A stretch of DNA of 64,000 nucleotides from Bremerella sp. P1. Lineage in GTDB: Bacteria > Planctomycetota > Planctomycetia > Pirellulales > Pirellulaceae. The position numbers and the translations under genes were made by a program. The notes under the pieces are model-generated. The model ran no database searches. It was not told the DNA's origin and saw only the letters and a program-made list of their open reading frames with translations. Below are positions 50,918-60,282 of the stretch, one piece after another (position 1 is the first letter of the stretch; every line of letters starts with the position of its first letter). The DNA lies in contig NZ_CP118164.1 of NCBI RefSeq assembly GCF_028748185.1, positions 4,117,814 to 4,181,813 of the forward strand, given 5' to 3'.

Positions 50918-52396
50918 TTAACTTCCGCATCCTCCACAGCCACCCCCGCCGCAACCACTGCCACATCCTCCTCCGCCGCCGCATCCGGAATCTCCTCCAC
51001 AGCCACCGCCGAAGCCACCCCAACTGGAACCTTGGGCGGCACGAAATTCATCGGCAAGTGGATAGAGGTCTCCGGATGCGAACGCAGTGATGCCAAATAG
51101 TCCAGCGGCCAGGAAGTAGTCGTCGGCCGTGGTAATCTTCGAGCCTGGGGCCATCGGGTTGAGATGCGCGTTTTCATGTTGCCAATCCGACAGGATGGCG
51201 TTGCCGCGCGAAGTACGCCCGCGACGAACGGCCAGCCAGATACAACTGATCAGCGCCGGAATGACCATCAACGCGAGGAATAGGACTGGTTTGTCACGAG
51301 TGGTACCGATCACGAGCTTGGTGACCCCAAGGCCAAAGATACCCAGCATGATGAGCGAAGGCACCCACCGCCGCGCGATCGGTTCGTAAGGGTTTGGCTC
51401 GAAGAGCCCCATTTCCGTGAGCCTGGCCCCTGCTTCCTTGGCGATGGGAATCGAGTTGGCAATAACTGTTTGGATTCCATCCTTGCCGGAGCGTTTTACC
51501 TCGTTGTAGATATGACGTTCCAAGGTCGACGCACCCGAGGATGGCGGATTGAGGGCCAGCAATTGCTTGACGACGCGTCCGCCTGAGTATCCCCCTTCGA
51601 CCAGTTCGAGTTTGCCGTCTTGAATCAGCTTGGCAATCGTGGCGATCACGAGTCCCTTCGGGCCTTGGGCCAGGTATGCCGCAAGCGTAGGGTCGTCGAC
51701 TTTCGCGGGGATCGGTGGTTCTGGGATGGGGATCAGAAAGCGAATAGCGAGCGCGATCACCAGGAAGATGACCCCGGTAATGGCGTAGAACTTCAGGAAT
51801 GTGGGGCCATCGAAATCCAAGGGTGAGACAGCCGCCACCGGATCGGCCTGACATCCGCCCAGGCTCAACATGGGTAGCAACACCAATAGAATCAGCGCCA
51901 ACCACTTCAACGGATTGCGAGGAATGATGAAGTACTCGCTGAGATTGACCCAGCGGCTGTCGACGACCGACTCCATTTGCTCGCCGACTGTCGGCCAGAT
52001 GTCCTTCGGTGGCTTTTCGCCGAAGTAGTTTTCGTAGCTTGCCAGGGTCTTCGCGTACCAGTCGTCGAACTTCTCGGTCTCTTCCCTGCGTCCCAGTGTG
52101 GGGCAATGGTGCAGAGGGCGAGGTAAGACTTCGCCGCAGAGTTGTTCCCAGTACGACTTCGTATAGGTCAGATGCAGATGCCAGGCCTGGTCGACGGCTT
52201 CCGATGGTGAAACCGCGTGGCCTGCGACCATCGAGAGGAAGAGGAATCGACGATATTCGTCGATCACACGTTGAGCGAAACCCAGTCGCCAGCCGTTTTC
52301 CCGCGCCAGTCTGGCGGCAAAGGTCAGCGTTGCTCCCGGTTGATCAAACGAGAACGCCTCGATCTTGTTCCACAATGCCTTCGCTTCCGCGTCCAT
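50918..52396 (-). CDS. TIGR04222-like membrane protein with Gly/Cys-rich tail
   Basis: A 492-residue protein. The N-terminal half is soluble and holds AVDQAWHLHLTYTKSYWEQL and HHCPTLGRREETEKFDDWY, a pattern I know from glycine-rich-domain (GRDP-like) proteins. The middle contains membrane segments and LDFDGPTFLKFYAITGV, typical of TIGR04222. The last 40 residues are a Gly/Cys array (GCGGGGGCGSGCGGGGCGG). The ATG at 52396 with AGGAACAGG upstream is chosen; in-frame residues from 52552 look spurious. Function unknown; the tail may bind metal. Confidence 0.78.
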   Translation of the reverse strand: MDAEAKALWNKIEAFSFDQPGATLTFAARLARENGWRLGFAQRVIDEYRRFLFLSMVAGHAVSPSEAVDQAWHLHLTYTKSYWEQLCGEVLPRPLHHCPTLGRREETEKFDDWYAKTLASYENYFGEKPPKDIWPTVGEQMESVVDSRWVNLSEYFIIPRNPLKWLALILLVLLPMLSLGGCQADPVAAVSPLDFDGPTFLKFYAITGVIFLVIALAIRFLIPIPEPPIPAKVDDPTLAAYLAQGPKGLVIATIAKLIQDGKLELVEGGYSGGRVVKQLLALNPPSSGASTLERHIYNEVKRSGKDGIQTVIANSIPIAKEAGARLTEMGLFEPNPYEPIARRWVPSLIMLGIFGLGVTKLVIGTTRDKPVLFLALMVIPALISCIWLAVRRGRTSRGNAILSDWQHENAHLNPMAPGSKITTADDYFLAAGLFGITAFASGDLYPLADEFRAAQGSSWGGFGGGCGGDSGCGGGGGCGSGCGGGGCGGCGS

Positions 52397-52606
52397 GGCA
52401 CCTGTTCCTGCGTAGTGCATGATGAGTTCGGCCACCGCGGAATTCCGTGGGCGAAATTTGCGGTCCGGCCTGCCTGACTTTATTCTAGAGAATGTCCTAC
52501 CTGATTTGCGACAAGGAAAGATCGACCATCCGCAGATTGTCAGATCGTTCAAATTTCCCTGCGCAAACTATTGACTTCTCCTCCCTTTTGGCTCCGGAAA
52601 TCCCTC

Positions 52607-54049
52607 ATGCCTGACTTTCTTCCCTTCCATCGACGCCTCTTCCTCAAGTCCACGGTTGCATCGGCTGCCATTGCGGCAGCGGCGGAAGCCAACGAATCGA
52701 CGAGAGTTATGAACCCGGCATACCAAGCGACCGGAATTCGCATCGGAGAAGTCACACCGACGACTGCGATCGTCTGGACACGCTTAACGAAGAACACAGA
52801 ACGCAACAACGACGGGATTGTGTTCAAGAAGCGAGGCAAGTCCGAAGAAGCCCTCAAGACACCGGTCGAGCAAATCGAAGGGGCATGCCCGGGACAACCA
52901 GGCAAGATTCGACTCGTCTACGAAGACCAAGGCACCACGCTGAAAACCGATTGGGTGAGCGTCGACGAGGAGTCGGACTTCATTCACCAATTTCAATTGA
53001 AAGATTTGAAACCTGGCACCGAGTACCACGTACTATGCGAGACCTCGGTGGAAGGTCAGGAACATGGGGCTCGCGTCGGCACGTTCCGCACGGCACCCAA
53101 GCCAGATGAAATCAAACCGGTTCACTTTTGCGTGATGACCTGCCAGGGTTATCCTGACCGCGACCATCCCGACGGGCACCCGATCTATCCTTCGATGACA
53201 GCGAAGGATCCCGACTTCATTTCGATGACCGGCGATTTGATTTACTACGACAACGATGCCCCCAGCGCGATGTCGGTCGATCTGGCGCATTTACATTGGG
53301 AGCGGATGTTCAGTCTGCCGCGCCTGGTCGATACGCTCAGCAAGACTTCTACCTATTGGTTGAAGGATGATCATGACACGCTCAACAACGATTCCTGGCC
53401 CGGGCGGACATATGGCGAGGTCACGTTTGAAGAGGGGCAGAAGATTTTCCGGCAGCAGGCACCGCTGGGCAGTGATTCGTATCGAACGTTTCGATGGGGC
53501 AAGGATCTGCAAATCTGGCTGACGGACGGCCGCGACTTCCGTTCGCCCAATCGGATGCCGGATGGTCCTGACAAGACGATCTGGGGAACTGAGCAGAAGG
53601 CCTGGTTCAAGCGAACCGTGAAAGAGAGCGACGCGACCTGGAAGATTCTGATCAGTCCCACCCCGATTGTGGGCCCAGACCGCAAGGGAAAGAACGACAA
53701 TCACGCCAATGCGGGCTTCTCCCACGAAGGCAACGAGATTCGGCAGTGGATACACGATAACGTCCCGGATAATTTCTTCGTGATCTGTGGCGATCGTCAC
53801 TGGCAATACCACTCGGTCGATCCGGAAACAGGCGTCAAGGAGTTCAGCGTAGGTGCCGCCAGTAATTCGCATGCCGGCGGAACGCCAGGGCGAAATCCGA
53901 AGATCCATCGCTTTCACAAAGTGCAAGGTGGTTTCCTGAATGTGATCGTCGATGGGGATCAGGACGAATCGGAGATCACGTTCCAACTGTGTGATGTCGA
54001 CGGAAATGTGGCGTTCGAGCAGAAGTTCGAGCGAGCTCGGACGATGTGA
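52607..54049 (+). CDS. PhoD-family alkaline phosphatase-like protein
   Basis: A 480-residue exported phosphoesterase. Residues 9-14 (RRLFLK) plus a hydrophobic stretch form a Tat signal. The PhoD domain is seen as GIRIGEVTPTTAIVWTRL, the metal-binding ISMTGDLIYYDND (Asp, Tyr), YWLKDDHDTLNND and ICGDRHWQYHSVD. It probably hydrolyses phosphodiesters or monoesters in the periplasm with Ca and Fe. The ATG at 52607 is chosen over a TTG at 52571. No pho box was identified in the 210 bases upstream, where I see no other gene. Confidence 0.93.
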   Translation: MPDFLPFHRRLFLKSTVASAAIAAAAEANESTRVMNPAYQATGIRIGEVTPTTAIVWTRLTKNTERNNDGIVFKKRGKSEEALKTPVEQIEGACPGQPGKIRLVYEDQGTTLKTDWVSVDEESDFIHQFQLKDLKPGTEYHVLCETSVEGQEHGARVGTFRTAPKPDEIKPVHFCVMTCQGYPDRDHPDGHPIYPSMTAKDPDFISMTGDLIYYDNDAPSAMSVDLAHLHWERMFSLPRLVDTLSKTSTYWLKDDHDTLNNDSWPGRTYGEVTFEEGQKIFRQQAPLGSDSYRTFRWGKDLQIWLTDGRDFRSPNRMPDGPDKTIWGTEQKAWFKRTVKESDATWKILISPTPIVGPDRKGKNDNHANAGFSHEGNEIRQWIHDNVPDNFFVICGDRHWQYHSVDPETGVKEFSVGAASNSHAGGTPGRNPKIHRFHKVQGGFLNVIVDGDQDESEITFQLCDVDGNVAFEQKFERARTM

Positions 54050-54129
54050 CCGTGACGCGGCGTCTTGGCAATGGTAATTTAAACGCGATGTGAGAGTCTC
54101 TGCTTGGTTGCCTTTTGACGGAACCTTCG

Positions 54130-54489
54130 ATGGAACTATTCGCGGTTGAGATACGGACGGCGCAGTGGCAGCCGATGATCCTGTGGTATACGAGTGCCTT
54201 GAACATGAAGGCCGCTGTACGCAGTGTCGAAGAGGGCTATGCACTCTTGGCCGGGCGAGGCTGGCGACTTTCGCTGCTCGAGTTGCAGGAAGATGAGCCA
54301 AGGGACCATTCGGCTTTCAGCTTGGCCATCGAAGTCGAGAATTTAGCGGCTGCCCGAGAACACATTGAGTCGTACTTGATGGAACCTTCGGCACCGATAG
54401 AGACGAGTGACGAGGGCTTTCTGCAGTGGACCACGACCGACCCCGACGGCAATCGCATCAAACTATTTCAATTTGTGGCCGTCGACTGA
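54130..54489 (+). CDS. VOC-superfamily (glyoxalase-like) protein
   Basis: A 119-residue single vicinal-oxygen-chelate domain. MELFAVEIRTAQWQPMILWY starts the first beta-alpha-beta unit, and FLQWTTTDPDGNRIKLFQF closes the second with the typical DPDGNRIKL. Putative metal ligands cannot be assigned. The ATG at 54130 is used in preference to a TTG at 54115. It follows the PhoD gene by 80 bases and is convergent with the thioredoxin gene. Substrate unknown. Confidence 0.9.
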   Translation: MELFAVEIRTAQWQPMILWYTSALNMKAAVRSVEEGYALLAGRGWRLSLLELQEDEPRDHSAFSLAIEVENLAAAREHIESYLMEPSAPIETSDEGFLQWTTTDPDGNRIKLFQFVAVD

Positions 54490-54499
54490 CAGGCAATGC

Positions 54500-55111
54500 T
54501 TATCGGCGCGATCGCTTGTAGCGAATGTTGCAGCCAATCGCGACCGTCTCTTGAACTTCGGGTTTTTTGCCGGCCAGGGTGGCTTTGATTGCTTGATTGA
54601 CGTAGTTCACCGTCGCTTCCGCGGCGTTGGTATCGTCGTCCATGGCCCCCATGTAGACGACTTTCCGCTCGCCGTCGATCACAAAGAATTCTGGCGTCCG
54701 GGTTGCTCCCCAGGCTTTTCCCAATTCCTGTTTCTCATCCTTCAGATAGGGGAAAGTGAACTTCTCGGTCTGGGCCCGTTCCTTCATGGCTTCGAGGGAA
54801 TCTTCATCGATCAGGTTCGAGTTCACGGCGATCACCGCCACCCGGTCGTCGTTTTCCCACTTTTGGGCAAGCGCTTTAATGCGTTCCTGGTAGTCGACCG
54901 CATAGGGGCAAGTGTTGCAGGTAAACGCAACGATGATCGTTTTCTTGTTTTTCAGTTCTTTCCAGCTATGCGGTTCCCCGTCAGTTCCAGGGAGATTCTC
55001 CCATGGCTGGACCGTATCACCGATGTCCAGAACCGGGTTGTACTCTCCAGCATGGATGGCGGTCAGTGGCAAAACGACCGCAAAAATCAGGGCAAAAACA
55101 CGTGACATCAT
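54500..55111 (-). CDS. Exported thioredoxin-family (redoxin) protein
   Basis: A 203-residue periplasmic redox protein. After a signal peptide (VVLPLTAIHAGEY) comes a redoxin domain with TIIVAFTCNTCPYAVDYQER, whose CNTC is the redox motif, and GATRTPEFFVIDGERKVVYMG with the cis-Pro. AhpC/TlpA-like proteins with CxxCPY are common in planctomycetes. The C-terminus carries a further Cys (AIGCNIRY). Probably a thiol-disulfide reductase or peroxidase-like partner; partner unknown. Confidence 0.9.
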   Translation of the reverse strand: MMSRVFALIFAVVLPLTAIHAGEYNPVLDIGDTVQPWENLPGTDGEPHSWKELKNKKTIIVAFTCNTCPYAVDYQERIKALAQKWENDDRVAVIAVNSNLIDEDSLEAMKERAQTEKFTFPYLKDEKQELGKAWGATRTPEFFVIDGERKVVYMGAMDDDTNAAEATVNYVNQAIKATLAGKKPEVQETVAIGCNIRYKRSRR

Positions 55112-55323
55112 TGGTCTCTTGGTTAGTCCGTAGTCGATAGGTAAAGCATGGTTGCTAACTGGCTATTGCTAACTTTCAGCATAGGCGACATTGTCGGCAG
55201 AAGCAAAATGATGCACCATAGGGCGAACGAAATCACTCAGGGGAAATTGTGACCAGTTGGGGCAGGTCAACAGTGGACGGCCGCGCAAATTATCTCAGGC
55301 GCGAGTCCCGAGTCCATTGAGAT

Positions 55324-56910
55324 ATGCCTCCAATCAGGGAGGAATCGGGCAACGTGGTGCAGCTTATTGGAAGTATTCTCAGCAGCATCGGTCTGTTCTT
55401 TCTTCATCTATTTGATACCGAAGGATTTCCCGCACGATGGTATTGCGGGTCGGTCTGGCAGGAAGAGCCTGGCGTTGGCTGGCTGCACATCGTTTCGGAC
55501 CTGGCTATTTTTGGTGCCTATCTGACCATTCCCGTTGTCCTGGCTTACTTTCTGTTTCGGCGACGTGACTTGCCATTTCCAACGCTGATCAGTCTGTTTG
55601 CCCTGTTTATTGTTTCTTGTGGATTTGGGCACTGCATCGAAGCGATCATCTTCTGGGAGCCTGTCTATCGCTTTTCTGGGCTCATTAAAGCGGTAACGGC
55701 AATCGTGTCCTGGGTGACCGTGGTGGCGTTGATTCCCATTATTCCGCGGGTTCTCAATCTGCCAAGCTTGGAAAAGGTCAATGTCCAACTGGAAGAAGAG
55801 ATCACCGAACGCCGACGAGCAGAAGCCCTGTTTCGGACAATTTTCTCTGGAGTTCCCAACGGAATCATCATGGTCGATTCATCTGGCAAACTGAAAATGG
55901 TGAACCAGCGCGTCGCCCAAATGTTTGGTTACACGGAAGAAGAGTTGATTGGCCAGTCAGTCGAGATGCTCATTCCCGCGGACACCCAGGTTCGTCATCG
56001 AGAACTACGGGATTCATTTTTCTCGGCCCCGCGTGTGCGAATGATGGGGGAAGGGCGTGATCTGCACGGTGTGCGAAAGAATCGGACTGAACTGCCTGTC
56101 GAGATTGGCTTGAATCCGATTGAAATCGGCAAAGAACACTTTGTCATTGCTTCGATTGTCGACATCTCGGAACGTAAACGGTCCGAGCAATCGGTGGCAG
56201 AGTATACCCGTCAACTCGAGAAGTCGAACGAAGAGCTCGAAGAGTTTGCCTATGTCGCGTCGCACGACTTGCGTTCGCCACTGCAGGCAGTGAAGAACCT
56301 GGCCAATTGGATTCGCGACGATAACGCAGAGACGTTGTCGGAAGAGTCTGTCAGACACATCGAATTGATGCATCAGCGTATCCAGCGGATGGAGCGTTTG
56401 CTGGATGATCTACTACAGTACTCGAGAGTCGGACGCACGGAGCAGGCCATATCTGAAGTCGACGTCACTGAGATGCTTGACTCAATCATTGACAGCCTGC
56501 CGCGTCCCGAAGCCATGCAGGTTCAGGTCGATCCAGATATGCCGGTCATCCGTACTCTGACGGCCCCGCTGGACTTGACCTTCCGGAATCTCATTCAGAA
56601 TGCCATTAAGCACCACGATCGTGAAGACGGTAATATTGTCGTGTCCTACCGCGATCAGGGGGATTTTATCCAGTTTTCCGTCCAGGATGACGGTCCTGGA
56701 ATCTCACCGGAATTTCACCAACGTATATTTCGGATGTTTGAGACTCTCCGTCCCCGCGATGACGTTGAAGGCAGCGGCATGGGTTTATCGCTCGTCCAAA
56801 AGACCGTAGAGACGATCGGTGGAAGCATTTCGCTTGAGTCGCAACCAGGCCAGGGATCGACTTTTTCGTTTACTTGGCCGAAGAATGCTCCGCTAGGAGA
56901 TCAAGAATGA
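55324..56910 (+). CDS. Ethylene-receptor-like membrane histidine kinase with PAS domain
   Basis: A 528-residue sensor kinase. Residues about 50-145 form three membrane helices. They contain HIVSDLAIFGAYLTIP and FIVSCGFGHCIEA, whose D59, Y66, I69, P70, I96, C99 and H103 align by spacing with ETR1 residues D25, Y32, I35, P36, I62, C65 and H69. A PAS domain (about 166-285) follows, then HisKA with H314 in YVASHDLRSPLQ and a HATPase with RNLIQNAIKHH, DDGPGI and GSGMGLSL. The start is uncertain: ATG 55324 has no ribosome binding site, while GTG 55354 follows a GGGAGGA. It overlaps the downstream receiver gene (ATGA). I infer ligand-controlled autophosphorylation, possibly copper/ethylene-linked. 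Confidence 0.9.
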   Translation: MPPIREESGNVVQLIGSILSSIGLFFLHLFDTEGFPARWYCGSVWQEEPGVGWLHIVSDLAIFGAYLTIPVVLAYFLFRRRDLPFPTLISLFALFIVSCGFGHCIEAIIFWEPVYRFSGLIKAVTAIVSWVTVVALIPIIPRVLNLPSLEKVNVQLEEEITERRRAEALFRTIFSGVPNGIIMVDSSGKLKMVNQRVAQMFGYTEEELIGQSVEMLIPADTQVRHRELRDSFFSAPRVRMMGEGRDLHGVRKNRTELPVEIGLNPIEIGKEHFVIASIVDISERKRSEQSVAEYTRQLEKSNEELEEFAYVASHDLRSPLQAVKNLANWIRDDNAETLSEESVRHIELMHQRIQRMERLLDDLLQYSRVGRTEQAISEVDVTEMLDSIIDSLPRPEAMQVQVDPDMPVIRTLTAPLDLTFRNLIQNAIKHHDREDGNIVVSYRDQGDFIQFSVQDDGPGISPEFHQRIFRMFETLRPRDDVEGSGMGLSLVQKTVETIGGSISLESQPGQGSTFSFTWPKNAPLGDQE

Positions 56911-57338
56911 TCGCACAGAATATTCGAATACTACTGGTAGAGGACGACGACATCGACGCAGAGGCCGTCAAGCGTGGATTCGCCAAAGCAGGGGTGCAAT
57001 GTCCCTTATATCGCGCAACCAATGGTGTCGAGGCGCTCGAGATGCTGCGGGACAAAAAGGGCTATTTCCAAGACGTGCCGTATATCGTGCTGCTTGATTT
57101 GAAATTACCCAAAATGAATGGACGTGAATTCCTCGAGGAAATTCGCAACGATGCTAAGCTACGCAAGAGTGTCGTATTTGTCTTGACAACATCGAACGCT
57201 GAAACGGATAAACTAGCTGCATATTCGCAATGTGTTGCTGGCTACATTACCAAAGCGAACGCCGGTGTTGAGTTTTGTGATCTGGTGCAAATGCTTGGTC
57301 ACTATTCGCAAATCAATGAATTTCCGGTTTGTATCTAG
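56907..57338 (+). CDS. Rcp1-like single-domain response regulator
   Basis: A 143-residue receiver with ILLVEDDDIDAEAVKRGF, phospho-acceptor in LLDLKLPKMNGREFL, the switch threonine in VLTTSNAETD and the conserved Lys in GYITKA. The inserted loop and ending resemble Rcp1-type receivers that partner phytochrome-like kinases. The start at 56907 overlaps the kinase stop (ATGA), so it is surely its cognate partner. It lacks an output domain; it probably relays phosphate to another protein. Confidence 0.93.
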   Translation: MIAQNIRILLVEDDDIDAEAVKRGFAKAGVQCPLYRATNGVEALEMLRDKKGYFQDVPYIVLLDLKLPKMNGREFLEEIRNDAKLRKSVVFVLTTSNAETDKLAAYSQCVAGYITKANAGVEFCDLVQMLGHYSQINEFPVCI

Positions 57339-57350
57339 AAGCGATTGGCG

Positions 57351-58388
57351 ATGAACATTCCCGTAGAAATACCGAAGATACTGCTCATCGAAGATGATTC
57401 GGTGTTTCGAATGCTCATTAAGCGACTTGTGAGCAACGACTTCCATATCGATGAGGCTTCCAGTATCGAGGCCGGGCGAAACCTGATTTCCACCGGCCGA
57501 TACCAGTGCGTCTTGCTCGATTATCGCCTGCCGGATGGGACTGGTTTTCAATTGCTGCCCGATGCGGTTGCGCGAGAACTACCCGTGGTGATGATGACCG
57601 CCATGGGGCATGAGCAACTGGCCATCGATGCGCTCAAACAAGGATGTCAGGATTACCTGGTCAAAGATGATTTGAACCGGGCAACGCTTTGCCGCAGTTT
57701 GGCCAACGCCATGCGGCAGGTTCAAGCCGATCGACAAACGATGCGACATCGTTTGACATTGCAGCGGGTCATTCAAGTCGCCGCTACGAAGTGTCGTCAG
57801 ACAACCTCGGCGATGCGACAGTCGTGCGACGACAGTTCTGATCGAAGTAAGGCCAGAGACCTCTACCTAGATCAACTTGACCACTTGATGGACGATCTGA
57901 CGGCTTATTCGCGACTATCGTCGCCGACCTGGGAAGTTCAGCCAGTTCAGCTGCCCAAGGTTCTTGAAGAGGTCCTTGGTGAGTTGAAGAATCGCACAGT
58001 CGGCTTGGCGATTGAGGTCTCCGATCAGACGGTAGCCACACTGAAGTCCGATCGGGATGCGGTTCAGTCCATTTGCCGAGGACTGCTTGATTGCCTGATT
58101 GAAGATGGTACCGATCAGGCCACGTTTGTATTTAGCTCGGAGCGGGATCAAGGGCATATCCGGGTCAACTTCGTCCCAAAAACTCAGAGCCTCGAGGCGC
58201 TTCAGGCTCAGCTGACGTCCGAAACCGTTTTGACGACGGAAGATTTCGTTGCCACAGGAATCGAGATTATTCGGCTTCTCGTCGAAGAGCTAAAGGGTAC
58301 GATTTGGGCAGAGCTTCAAGAAGATGAAGTTCAGATCCGTGTGGATTTGCCCAACGGCAACCATCTCGACGGAGTGTCAGCCAAGTAG
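57351..58388 (+). CDS. Receiver domain fused to a degenerate histidine-kinase-like module
   Basis: A 345-residue protein. Residues 1-125 are a receiver with LLIEDDSVFRMLIK, phospho-Asp in LLDYRLPDGTG, MMTAMG and DYLVKDD. The rest follows HisKA-HATPase layout (LYLDQLDHLMDDLTAYSRL, then VLEEVLGELKNR) but the phospho-His, the N-box Asn (ICRGLLDCLIEDG) and both glycine boxes are missing. It is 12 bases after the Rcp1-like gene, with start ATG 57351. It probably acts as a phosphorylation-dependent adaptor in the ethylene-receptor-like pathway. Output is unknown. Confidence 0.85.
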   Translation: MNIPVEIPKILLIEDDSVFRMLIKRLVSNDFHIDEASSIEAGRNLISTGRYQCVLLDYRLPDGTGFQLLPDAVARELPVVMMTAMGHEQLAIDALKQGCQDYLVKDDLNRATLCRSLANAMRQVQADRQTMRHRLTLQRVIQVAATKCRQTTSAMRQSCDDSSDRSKARDLYLDQLDHLMDDLTAYSRLSSPTWEVQPVQLPKVLEEVLGELKNRTVGLAIEVSDQTVATLKSDRDAVQSICRGLLDCLIEDGTDQATFVFSSERDQGHIRVNFVPKTQSLEALQAQLTSETVLTTEDFVATGIEIIRLLVEELKGTIWAELQEDEVQIRVDLPNGNHLDGVSAK

Positions 58389-58649
58389 ATTCAGCTCCGT
58401 CCCACATTGCCCCTCAGACTCTTTCTCTCAAGGAGTCTTACTCAATGTCGACCTGCATGAAGCTTCCTGGTTGCCTCGTTCTTCTCGGAGGTTTTTGCTC
58501 AGCCAACTGCAGCAACTCATTTTCCAAAAGAATAAGATGGCCCAGCAGCATTTGGCCGAAGCCCGTCGTCTTCGCAACAGCTTAACCGCGGCGGTAATTG
58601 ATCAGGCTCTCGCCGCGTAGTTACTGAAACGGTGTGTGCCTGGGTGGTA

Positions 58650-59357
58650 TTAGTTCTCAGGCTTGGCTTCCGCCTTTTCAAAGAACATCATGTGTTGCCA
58701 GGGGAGGCCATCAAACTGCCTGGCGAGCTGGAAGCCATTCGCTTCGTACTCGAGCAGCATCTGCTTCTTGCTCATCTTGTGCAGGAGCTTGATCGGGACA
58801 TTGGGGTCTTCCATCCGAAATTCCAACAGCGCGATCTTGCCGTCAGGCTTGAGCGACTTCCGCATCGCGGCCAACATCTCGACCGGGTGAGAGAACTCGT
58901 GATAGACGTCGACACAGAGGATCAGATCGATCTTCCCTTCCGGTAGTTTCGGATTGTCGATATCACCGAGAACCAGCTCGATGTTTTCGATCCCTTTTTC
59001 TTCGGCCCGAGCTTTCAGCAGTCGCAGCATCTCTGGCTGGATATCAACGGCCAGAATCTTACCGTCTTTGCCGACCATTTCGGCCAATTTCAGGCTGTAA
59101 AAACCATTGCCGCATCCCATGTCGCAGATGGTCATGCCTGGCTTGACGCCAAGGTTTTCCAGCATCTTCTGGCAGTCTTCTTCCCGTTGGCGGCTTTCGC
59201 GGATCAACCAAGGGGCACCGTTGTAGTGCATGGTCTGGGCGATTTCGCGTCCCTTGTAGACGGGACGACCAGCGACGGTAGTCACGTCTTCCTGGGCGGA
59301 AGCAAACTGCGTAGCGATAAAGACGAGAGCGAGCGAGAAAGCAGCGGTGCGAAGCAT
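58650..59357 (-). CDS. Class I methyltransferase-like protein with signal peptide
   Basis: A 235-residue protein with a Rossmann methyltransferase core: ICDMGCGNGFYSLKLAEM (SAM-binding motif I), LAVDIQPEML (motif II) and DLILCVDVYHEFSHP. Its first 22 residues (TAAFSLALVFIATQFASAQ) look like a cleavable Sec signal, surprising because SAM is cytosolic. AGGAACCT precedes the ATG at 59357; the in-frame extension to 59435 overlaps lpxI and is not needed. It is the last gene of the rseP-lpxD-lpxI operon, 31 bases after lpxI. Substrate unknown. Confidence 0.88.
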   Translation of the reverse strand: MLRTAAFSLALVFIATQFASAQEDVTTVAGRPVYKGREIAQTMHYNGAPWLIRESRQREEDCQKMLENLGVKPGMTICDMGCGNGFYSLKLAEMVGKDGKILAVDIQPEMLRLLKARAEEKGIENIELVLGDIDNPKLPEGKIDLILCVDVYHEFSHPVEMLAAMRKSLKPDGKIALLEFRMEDPNVPIKLLHKMSKKQMLLEYEANGFQLARQFDGLPWQHMMFFEKAEAKPEN

Positions 59358-59388
59358 AGGTTCCTGGCAGGGCGGCCAGGCAAAGTAC

Positions 59389-60282
59389 CTAGGCCGCTTC
59401 CGAAGAGGGAGCAAATTCGGTGAGGCGATCCTCACTTACAGCGAGAATCGACAAACGATGGTTCTTTGCAAATTCTAACACGGCCGGTTCGTCGAGGAGA
59501 ATTGTTTTTTCTGCCTCGAGTACCAACGTACTGGCACCGGCATCCACCATCGTCTGCAGAGTACCTACACCAATCGTGGGGACATCGAAACGCATGTCTT
59601 GCTGCGGCTTGGCAACTTTCACCACGGTAAAGCCGCCAGCCTTGCAGAGACTGCCTGCCCGCTGAATGCACGCATCGGTACCTTCAATGGCTTCCAGGGC
59701 CAACACGGCCTGGTTCTTGACGGCTACGCTTTGGCCGACATCCAGACGACCGAGTTCCTTCGCCATTTCCCAACCAAACTGAATGTCCCGCAGCAGTTTT
59801 CCACTTGGCTGAGGACCAGCGATAATGCCAAAATTCACGAGCAACTCCGGAGCATAATCGGTCGCAGGTAAGAAAGTAATTCCGTTGTTTGCGAATGCGT
59901 TGACGATTGCCAGCAGCAAGGTGTCGTCCTTGCGATCCTTGGTACCCCATAGGATCTGCGGAGCGAACGTCTTCAGGCAGAACCAGTCGGGACGGTGTTT
60001 CCACAACACACCGCGATCAAACAAGCGAATCTTGTGGATCTTCCCCGCCATGGTGGCTTCGGTCGCGTTGTGCTTCTGATAGTGACGCTTCACTTTGCCG
60101 AGTTGACCGAGCCCGACCCAAACGGTCGCATCGCAAAGTTCTTCCAAGATGGGATCGGCGTGATCCTTAACCGCCGCGCACACGACACCGCGGCCGGAAC
60201 GCTTGATGGCTTGGGCCACCACAATCGGAAGGTTTCCCCAGCCGGCGAGCAGGCCAACCGGAGACAGGTTCGAGGCATTCAT
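59389..60282 (-). CDS. lpxI: UDP-2,3-diacylglucosamine diphosphatase LpxI
   Basis: A 297-residue LpxI (DUF1009) enzyme that hydrolyses UDP-2,3-diacylglucosamine to lipid X in lipid A synthesis. Family blocks are GLLAGWGNLPIVVAQAI, ATMAGKIHKIRLF, KDDTLLLAIVNAF and DMRFDVPTIGVGTLQTM. LpxI replaces LpxH in many alpha-proteobacteria and others. It lies 10 bases after lpxD, so the two pathway steps are co-transcribed. Confidence 0.93.
   Translation of the reverse strand: MNASNLSPVGLLAGWGNLPIVVAQAIKRSGRGVVCAAVKDHADPILEELCDATVWVGLGQLGKVKRHYQKHNATEATMAGKIHKIRLFDRGVLWKHRPDWFCLKTFAPQILWGTKDRKDDTLLLAIVNAFANNGITFLPATDYAPELLVNFGIIAGPQPSGKLLRDIQFGWEMAKELGRLDVGQSVAVKNQAVLALEAIEGTDACIQRAGSLCKAGGFTVVKVAKPQQDMRFDVPTIGVGTLQTMVDAGASTLVLEAEKTILLDEPAVLEFAKNHRLSILAVSEDRLTEFAPSSEAA

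Follow-up and report, generated by a model that had tools for sequence, protein, structure and literature searches.

Does a planctomycete possess a receptor for ethylene? Proven bacterial ethylene receptors are few, those of Synechocystis and Azospirillum being the ones treated in the available parts of PMC6682694 and PMC11819568, and putative receptors have been named for proteobacteria and cyanobacteria (PMC7700396) and also for other bacterial phyla (PMC11819568). No planctomycete ethylene receptor appeared among the literature matches listed, which comprised titles and the beginnings of abstracts, and in which the wording "planctomycetes" may miss "Planctomycetota". The question is raised by a sensor kinase gene of Bremerella sp. 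P1, located in a stretch of 64,000 nucleotides (hereafter, the window). An earlier note on this DNA had claimed that the kinase carries a complete set of the residues required for ethylene and copper binding in Arabidopsis ETR1. We found that the front part of the protein matches the ethylene/copper-binding domain of ETR1, and ethylene detection is therefore probable; the kinase is likely to be a bacterial ethylene receptor, of the same kind as ETR1, SynEtr1 and AzoEtr1. By homology with these proteins, we infer that it would bind both ethylene and copper.

Domain layout and predicted copper site of the kinase

The open reading frame claimed in the earlier note exists: it lies on the plus strand at 55324-56910, starts with ATG, encodes 528 amino acids and contains both of the helix segments that had been quoted. 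Together with its Pfam domains, which occur in the order ETR1_N, PAS, HisKA and HATPase_c, this frame identifies an ETR1-type sensor histidine kinase. The claimed coupling to a PAS-HisKA-HATPase module was borne out as well, with all three domains exceeding their Pfam cut-offs on the same strand. The PAS domain (55828-56190, approximately residues 169-289) was matched by PAS_9, PAS and PAS_4, the HisKA dimerization/phosphoacceptor domain (56236-56430, with His314 at 56263) by PF00512 with E=4.7e-13, and the HATPase_c catalytic domain (56569-56883) by PF02518 with E=3.9e-26, so that a histidine kinase output is present in this protein. After the membrane part, no sensor domain other than PAS exceeded the Pfam cut-off. 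Among solved structures, the kinase core is closest to a chain named just "Histidine kinase", followed by bacteriophytochromes.

A profile search with the ETR1 membrane domain gave a significant match: PF25487 (ETR1_N), which Pfam describes as "Ethylene receptor 1-like, N-terminal domain", aligned over positions 2-97 of its 97 positions with E=1.3e-34 and 118.8 bits, the curated cut-off being 27 bits. An origin of this likeness by convergence or chance was ruled out by the same E value. The matched domain comprises residues 51-146 (55474-55761, plus strand) and, according to a low-confidence model, three membrane helices. All seven residues that we take to be the ones required in ETR1 were found, in agreement with the earlier note, namely D59 (55498), Y66 (55519), I69 (55528) and P70 (55531) in the first core helix (55498-55533, plus strand), and I96 (55609), C99 (55618) and H103 (55630) in the second (55609-55632, plus strand). 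Their spacing, claimed earlier to be that of ETR1, equals that of AzoEtr1 (D35, C75 and H79), with 40 residues from Asp to Cys and 4 from Cys to His in both proteins. The existence of a set of residues required in ETR1 is described in PMC11819568, in the available part of which D25, C65, H69 and K91 are given. By homology with ETR1, the Cu(I) ion is proposed to be coordinated by C99 and H103. In pairwise alignment, K122 (55687-55689, plus strand) is the counterpart of AzoEtr1 K98 and ETR1 K91, a lysine whose role is treated in PMC11819568. According to the available part of a 2026 review (PMC13012798), the Asp varies naturally but is strongly conserved among receptor-like proteins of plants and bacteria, and replacing it by Asn lowers affinity approximately 100-fold; the window kinase carries the Asp (D59), not Asn.

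In front of the ETR1_N domain, hydropathy delineated an extra N-terminal hydrophobic helix at approximately residues 8-32 (55345-55419, plus strand), with values above 1.4 in 19-residue windows starting at residues 8-14. Cys41 (55444-55446, plus strand) precedes the first core helix and is a Cys in 61 of 66 aligned rows (described below); it is a possible dimer disulfide, and a single Cys is described in the corresponding N-terminal region of cyanobacterial receptors (PMC6682694, in the part available). AlphaFold2 modeling of the membrane domain from two sequences, those of the window and of locus L003, reached a mean pLDDT of 60.3 and a pTM of 0.32, and this low-confidence model contains helices at residues 49-79, 85-109 and 113-136 in addition to an N-terminal helix at 4-29. 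Such a predicted pattern, with the caution due to its low confidence, fits an additional N-terminal helix in front of three core helices, and the hydropathy of the N-terminal part is compatible with membrane helices. In sequence searches of the PDB at E up to 1, neither the single protein nor a profile built from 23 rows gave a chain matching the ETR1_N domain. We also computed helix faces on ideal helices from 63 rows, with L074, L096, L098 and L099 left out. The direction of strongest conservation was 200 degrees for helix 2 (I96 at 240, C99 at 180 and H103 at 220 degrees), 315 degrees for helix 3 (K122 at 320) and 86 degrees for helix 1 (D59 at 140, Y66 at 120, I69 at 60 and P70 at 160). 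The required residues thus appear to sit on the conserved faces, closely in helices 2 and 3 and roughly in helix 1, an agreement that is partly circular because these residues are among the conserved ones that set the direction.

Spread of the ETR1_N domain and conservation of its residues

PF25487 was found in 42 of 392 sampled genomes of the phylum, versus none of 14 control genomes, and in 32 of the 217 phylum genomes with at least 90% completeness and at most 5% contamination. With the kinase protein as query, matches were obtained in 24 of 100 sampled genomes of the family, the own genome included. Fifty-five stretches covering 56 ETR1_N places in phylum genomes were fetched, and the alignment of 66 rows consisted of 55 phylum stretches (including that of the window), L003, and 10 of 19 matching plasmid records; L074, a repeat of the window, was dropped from the rows, and the other nine plasmid records, as well as L110-L128 from the family search with the protein as query, stand outside the alignment. 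All seven residues are kept in 54 of the 66 rows, a proportion favored by the choice of rows with a profile partly trained on the window's own domain, and drawn from rows that are not all independent, since some (L055 with L056, and the three Azospirillum rows) have the same or nearly the same domain sequence. Individually, Asp is retained in 63 rows, Tyr in 65, the Ile at position 69 in 62, Pro in 61, the Ile at position 96 in 62, and Cys and His each in 66, while the third-helix Lys (the position of K122) is retained in 62. At least one of the seven is lacking in 12 rows (L048, L072, L085, L087, L089, L093, L095, L096, L097, L098, L099 and L107), two of which, L096 and L098, are fragments in the motif region. 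The complete seven-residue set is the rule within the ETR1_N family, and the window kinase is therefore less exceptional than the earlier note implied.

The constancy of Cys and His, steadier than Pro or Lys, raises the possibility that the same site reports copper itself, without an ethylene signal. Such a Cu(I) sensor may also be favored by the three Cu-ATPases exceeding the family cut-off in the own genome, but 13 of the 14 controls pass this cut-off too, and these ATPases could equally serve as the copper supply of a receptor. Asp, Tyr, Ile, Pro and Lys are, moreover, kept as in AzoEtr1, a proven ethylene receptor, and no copper- or ethylene-related gene was recognizable among the scanned neighbors of the operon. 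ETR1 was reported to bind one copper per chain with a KD of 1.3e-15 M (available part of PMC6586836), an affinity that would be more in keeping with a permanently bound cofactor than with a signal that comes and goes. Taken with the residues shared with AzoEtr1, this makes copper sensing as such a very unlikely function.

Across the phylum, the ETR1_N domain is joined to many different outputs. That diversity would suit a copper-based sensor of some other small ligand, such as carbon monoxide, oxygen or redox state, or another alkene, and the class can carry second inputs, SynEtr1 sensing light as well (PMC6682694, in the part available). The seven positions and the Lys are, however, all identical to those of AzoEtr1, and no direct evidence for a different ligand was found, so that we regard a ligand other than ethylene as unlikely. 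We are not aware of an ethylene source for Bremerella sp. P1, a point in favor of another ligand. ACC deaminase was not found in the own genome, in a weak test in which none of the 14 controls passed the cut-off either. Ethylene remains the preferred ligand.

The own genome contains two ETR1_N copies, the window kinase and a second one at 2664484. The second copy (L053 4398-6884, approximately 2664 kb) is an 829-aa hybrid kinase with PAS, HisKA, HATPase_c and a C-terminal receiver. Relatives in named genomes were found at 12 loci, of which only L003 has the binding domain; in the other 11, L004-L014, the domain profile found nothing even with E values up to 10 allowed. The tblastn matches of L004 and L014 start within the membrane part (at residues 57 and 75, respectively), yet do not represent the domain, and those of the remaining loci fall in the PAS-kinase part or the linker. 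Among viral contigs, 33 candidate stretches were obtained and none was confirmed. In the Acaryochloris "Moss Beach" plasmid (L106 4025-6507), the annotation splits the ETR1_N kinase region into three successive genes, which suggests decay or sequencing error. The PF07596 (SBP_bac_10) family, which marks planctomycetes, had 142 matches in the own genome, versus none in the 14 control genomes, and so lends indirect support to the planctomycete assignment. Elsewhere in the window, the protein encoded at 50918-52552 on the minus strand has a tail rich in Gly and Cys and matches DUF2207_C below threshold.

The three-gene set and its putative signaling route

Downstream of the kinase, two regulator genes follow on the plus strand. 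RR1 (56907-57338) is an Rcp1-like single-domain response regulator of 143 aa with a match to PF00072 only, and its ATG at 56907 overlaps the kinase stop by 4 bases (ATGA), an overlap common to L003, L066 and L077. The phytochrome regulators RcpB, RcpA and Rcp1 are among the eight best solved relatives of RR1; together with a bacteriophytochrome-regulator fusion they match at 1.1e-16 to 1.7e-14, and they are outscored by two unnamed regulators (2.6e-19 and 5.3e-18). Because RR1 is near RcpB, RcpA and Rcp1 and the kinase core is near bacteriophytochromes, the kinase and RR1 look like a phytochrome-type pair carrying an ethylene-type input. RR2 (57351-58388) is a 345-aa protein in which a receiver, matched by PF00072 only, is followed by a degenerate histidine-kinase-like C-terminal half. 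This half gave no Pfam match to HisKA or HATPase_c at E 0.001, and the RR2 homologue of L003 has a sub-threshold match to the HATPase_c tail (E=0.006); a poor model (pLDDT 49.6) contains long helices and then alpha/beta elements. We hold the assignment of this half as a degenerate kinase with moderate confidence. No Rfam family exceeded its gathering score in window positions 54000-59500.

The kinase, RR1 and RR2 occur together in the window, in L003 (a metagenome-assembled genome, isolate RI_54), in L066 (congener G205) and in L077 (congener G333), RR2 thus being kept in two congeners and one metagenome-assembled genome. A PhoD-like phosphatase, a glyoxalase-fold protein and a redoxin upstream, and a methyltransferase downstream, are common to the flanks of all four loci. 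In a domain tree obtained by quick search, from which L074, L096, L098 and L099 were omitted, these four loci formed one clade with an SH-aLRT of 96. The same flanks in three relatives and this four-locus clade speak against a recent transfer of the operon into the own genome alone, which was rejected. Of the 54 phylum stretches besides that of the window, only L066 and L077 have the strict three-gene set (L003 is not one of the 54), and a looser set consisting of a kinase, an Rcp1-like regulator and a second receiver protein was found in L076, which belongs to another family. Not every member of the genus was found to carry the set: congener G327 gave a single match, a hybrid kinase resembling the second copy of the own genome. 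What is less expected at this locus is the three-gene arrangement with a degenerate kinase as partner.

The PAS domain lies between the membrane domain and the kinase, and solved structures related to this PAS part include FixL PAS domains; it could hence be argued that PAS is the sensor and that the membrane domain is a mere anchor or dimerizer. The congener kinase of L077 (4501-5721), an open frame of 407 codons, bears on this point: it showed no match to PAS, the alignment skipping that part, and it retains the membrane domain, in which neither the Lys nor any of the seven residues is missing, together with the kinase and both regulators. A plain anchor would, in addition, not be expected to retain Asp, Cys, His and Lys within the membrane. 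The role of a mere anchor is therefore highly improbable. Since the form lacking a PAS match keeps all seven residues, the comparison points to the membrane domain, rather than PAS, as the input that presumably matters. The PAS-free form of L077 is also a compact candidate for structural work on a domain without a sequence match in the PDB.

With the ETR1_N domain as the probable ethylene input, the following mechanism may be envisaged. The kinase would form a dimer in which each chain is inserted in the membrane by its three core helices and the additional one. In the second core helix, Cys99 and His103 would hold a Cu(I) ion in a pocket shaped by Asp59, Tyr66, Ile69, Pro70 and Ile96, and Asp59 would pair with Lys122 of the third helix, relaying the signal. 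Ethylene on Cu(I) may shift the helices and change the autophosphorylation of His314; that this change would be a lowering is an analogy only, drawn from AzoEtr1, for which the authors predict that ethylene lowers autophosphorylation (PMC11819568, in the part available). The phosphate may then pass to the adjoining Rcp1-like regulator, and perhaps also to the receiver of RR2, whose kinase-like half, with its catalytic signatures seemingly lost, may serve as a docking or output part. As a tentative extension, ethylene may be a cue for a sizeable part of the phylum, read in this genus via the Rcp1-like regulator and a receiver-pseudokinase branch inherited within the genus. If ethylene perception by the window kinase is true, tested ethylene sensing would reach another phylum, with a complete site in a conserved gene set.

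Comparison with known systems

AzoEtr1 of Azospirillum brasilense, as described in the available part of PMC11819568, is a plasmid-borne receptor of 525 aa in a plant-associated bacterium, with the order binding domain-PAS-kinase. Its first 130 residues were demonstrated to show saturable 14C-ethylene binding, and D35A and C75A mutants gave no biofilm rescue, a result on which the authors themselves caution because of the two-plasmid set-up (PMC11819568). A 135-aa single-domain regulator adjoins AzoEtr1, with its start overlapping the receptor stop (PMC11819568). The A. brasilense plasmid record L102 contains a 525-aa gene with D35, C75, H79 and K98, and a 135-aa regulator that starts inside the end of this AzoEtr1-like gene. 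In another plasmid record, from A. brasilense MTCC4038 (L100 3902-4534), the AzoEtr1-like frame is open for 211 codons, versus 529 in L102 and 570 in L103; the short frame may be a sequencing error.

The window kinase and L102 align over 529 columns with E=2e-48, without gaps from the first through the third core helix, and K122 pairs with K98. AzoEtr1 and the window kinase are alike in domain order, in length (525 versus 528 aa), in the seven residues and the Lys, and in an adjoining, overlapping single-domain regulator. They are unlike in that identity over the whole protein is 29%, the AzoEtr1 kinase core matches that of the window with 39 bits and the AzoEtr1 regulator matches RR1 with approximately 20 bits, and an RR2-like neighbor is present in the window and absent from the fetched AzoEtr1 stretch. 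Given these low scores and the closer relation of the kinase core to bacteriophytochromes, the output half may have another origin. For the planctomycetes considered here, we know of no plant association.

SynEtr1 (Slr1212) of Synechocystis, likened here by description and not by alignment, resembles the window kinase in its ETR1-type membrane domain, its N-terminal extension with one Cys and its two-component output, and differs from it in being also a light receptor (PMC6682694, in the part available). Phytochrome-Rcp1 pairs resemble the window in the kinase core, which is near bacteriophytochromes, and in the affinity of RR1 to RcpB, RcpA and Rcp1; their input is a bilin photosensor, whereas that of the window is the ETR1_N membrane domain. 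Arabidopsis ETR1 shares with the window kinase the seven required residues and, by homology, the Cys/His ligands of Cu(I). ETR1 carries a GAF domain, has its receiver fused to the same chain and acts through CTR1, whereas the window kinase has PAS and separate regulators. The window kinase is a further member of an already known receptor class.
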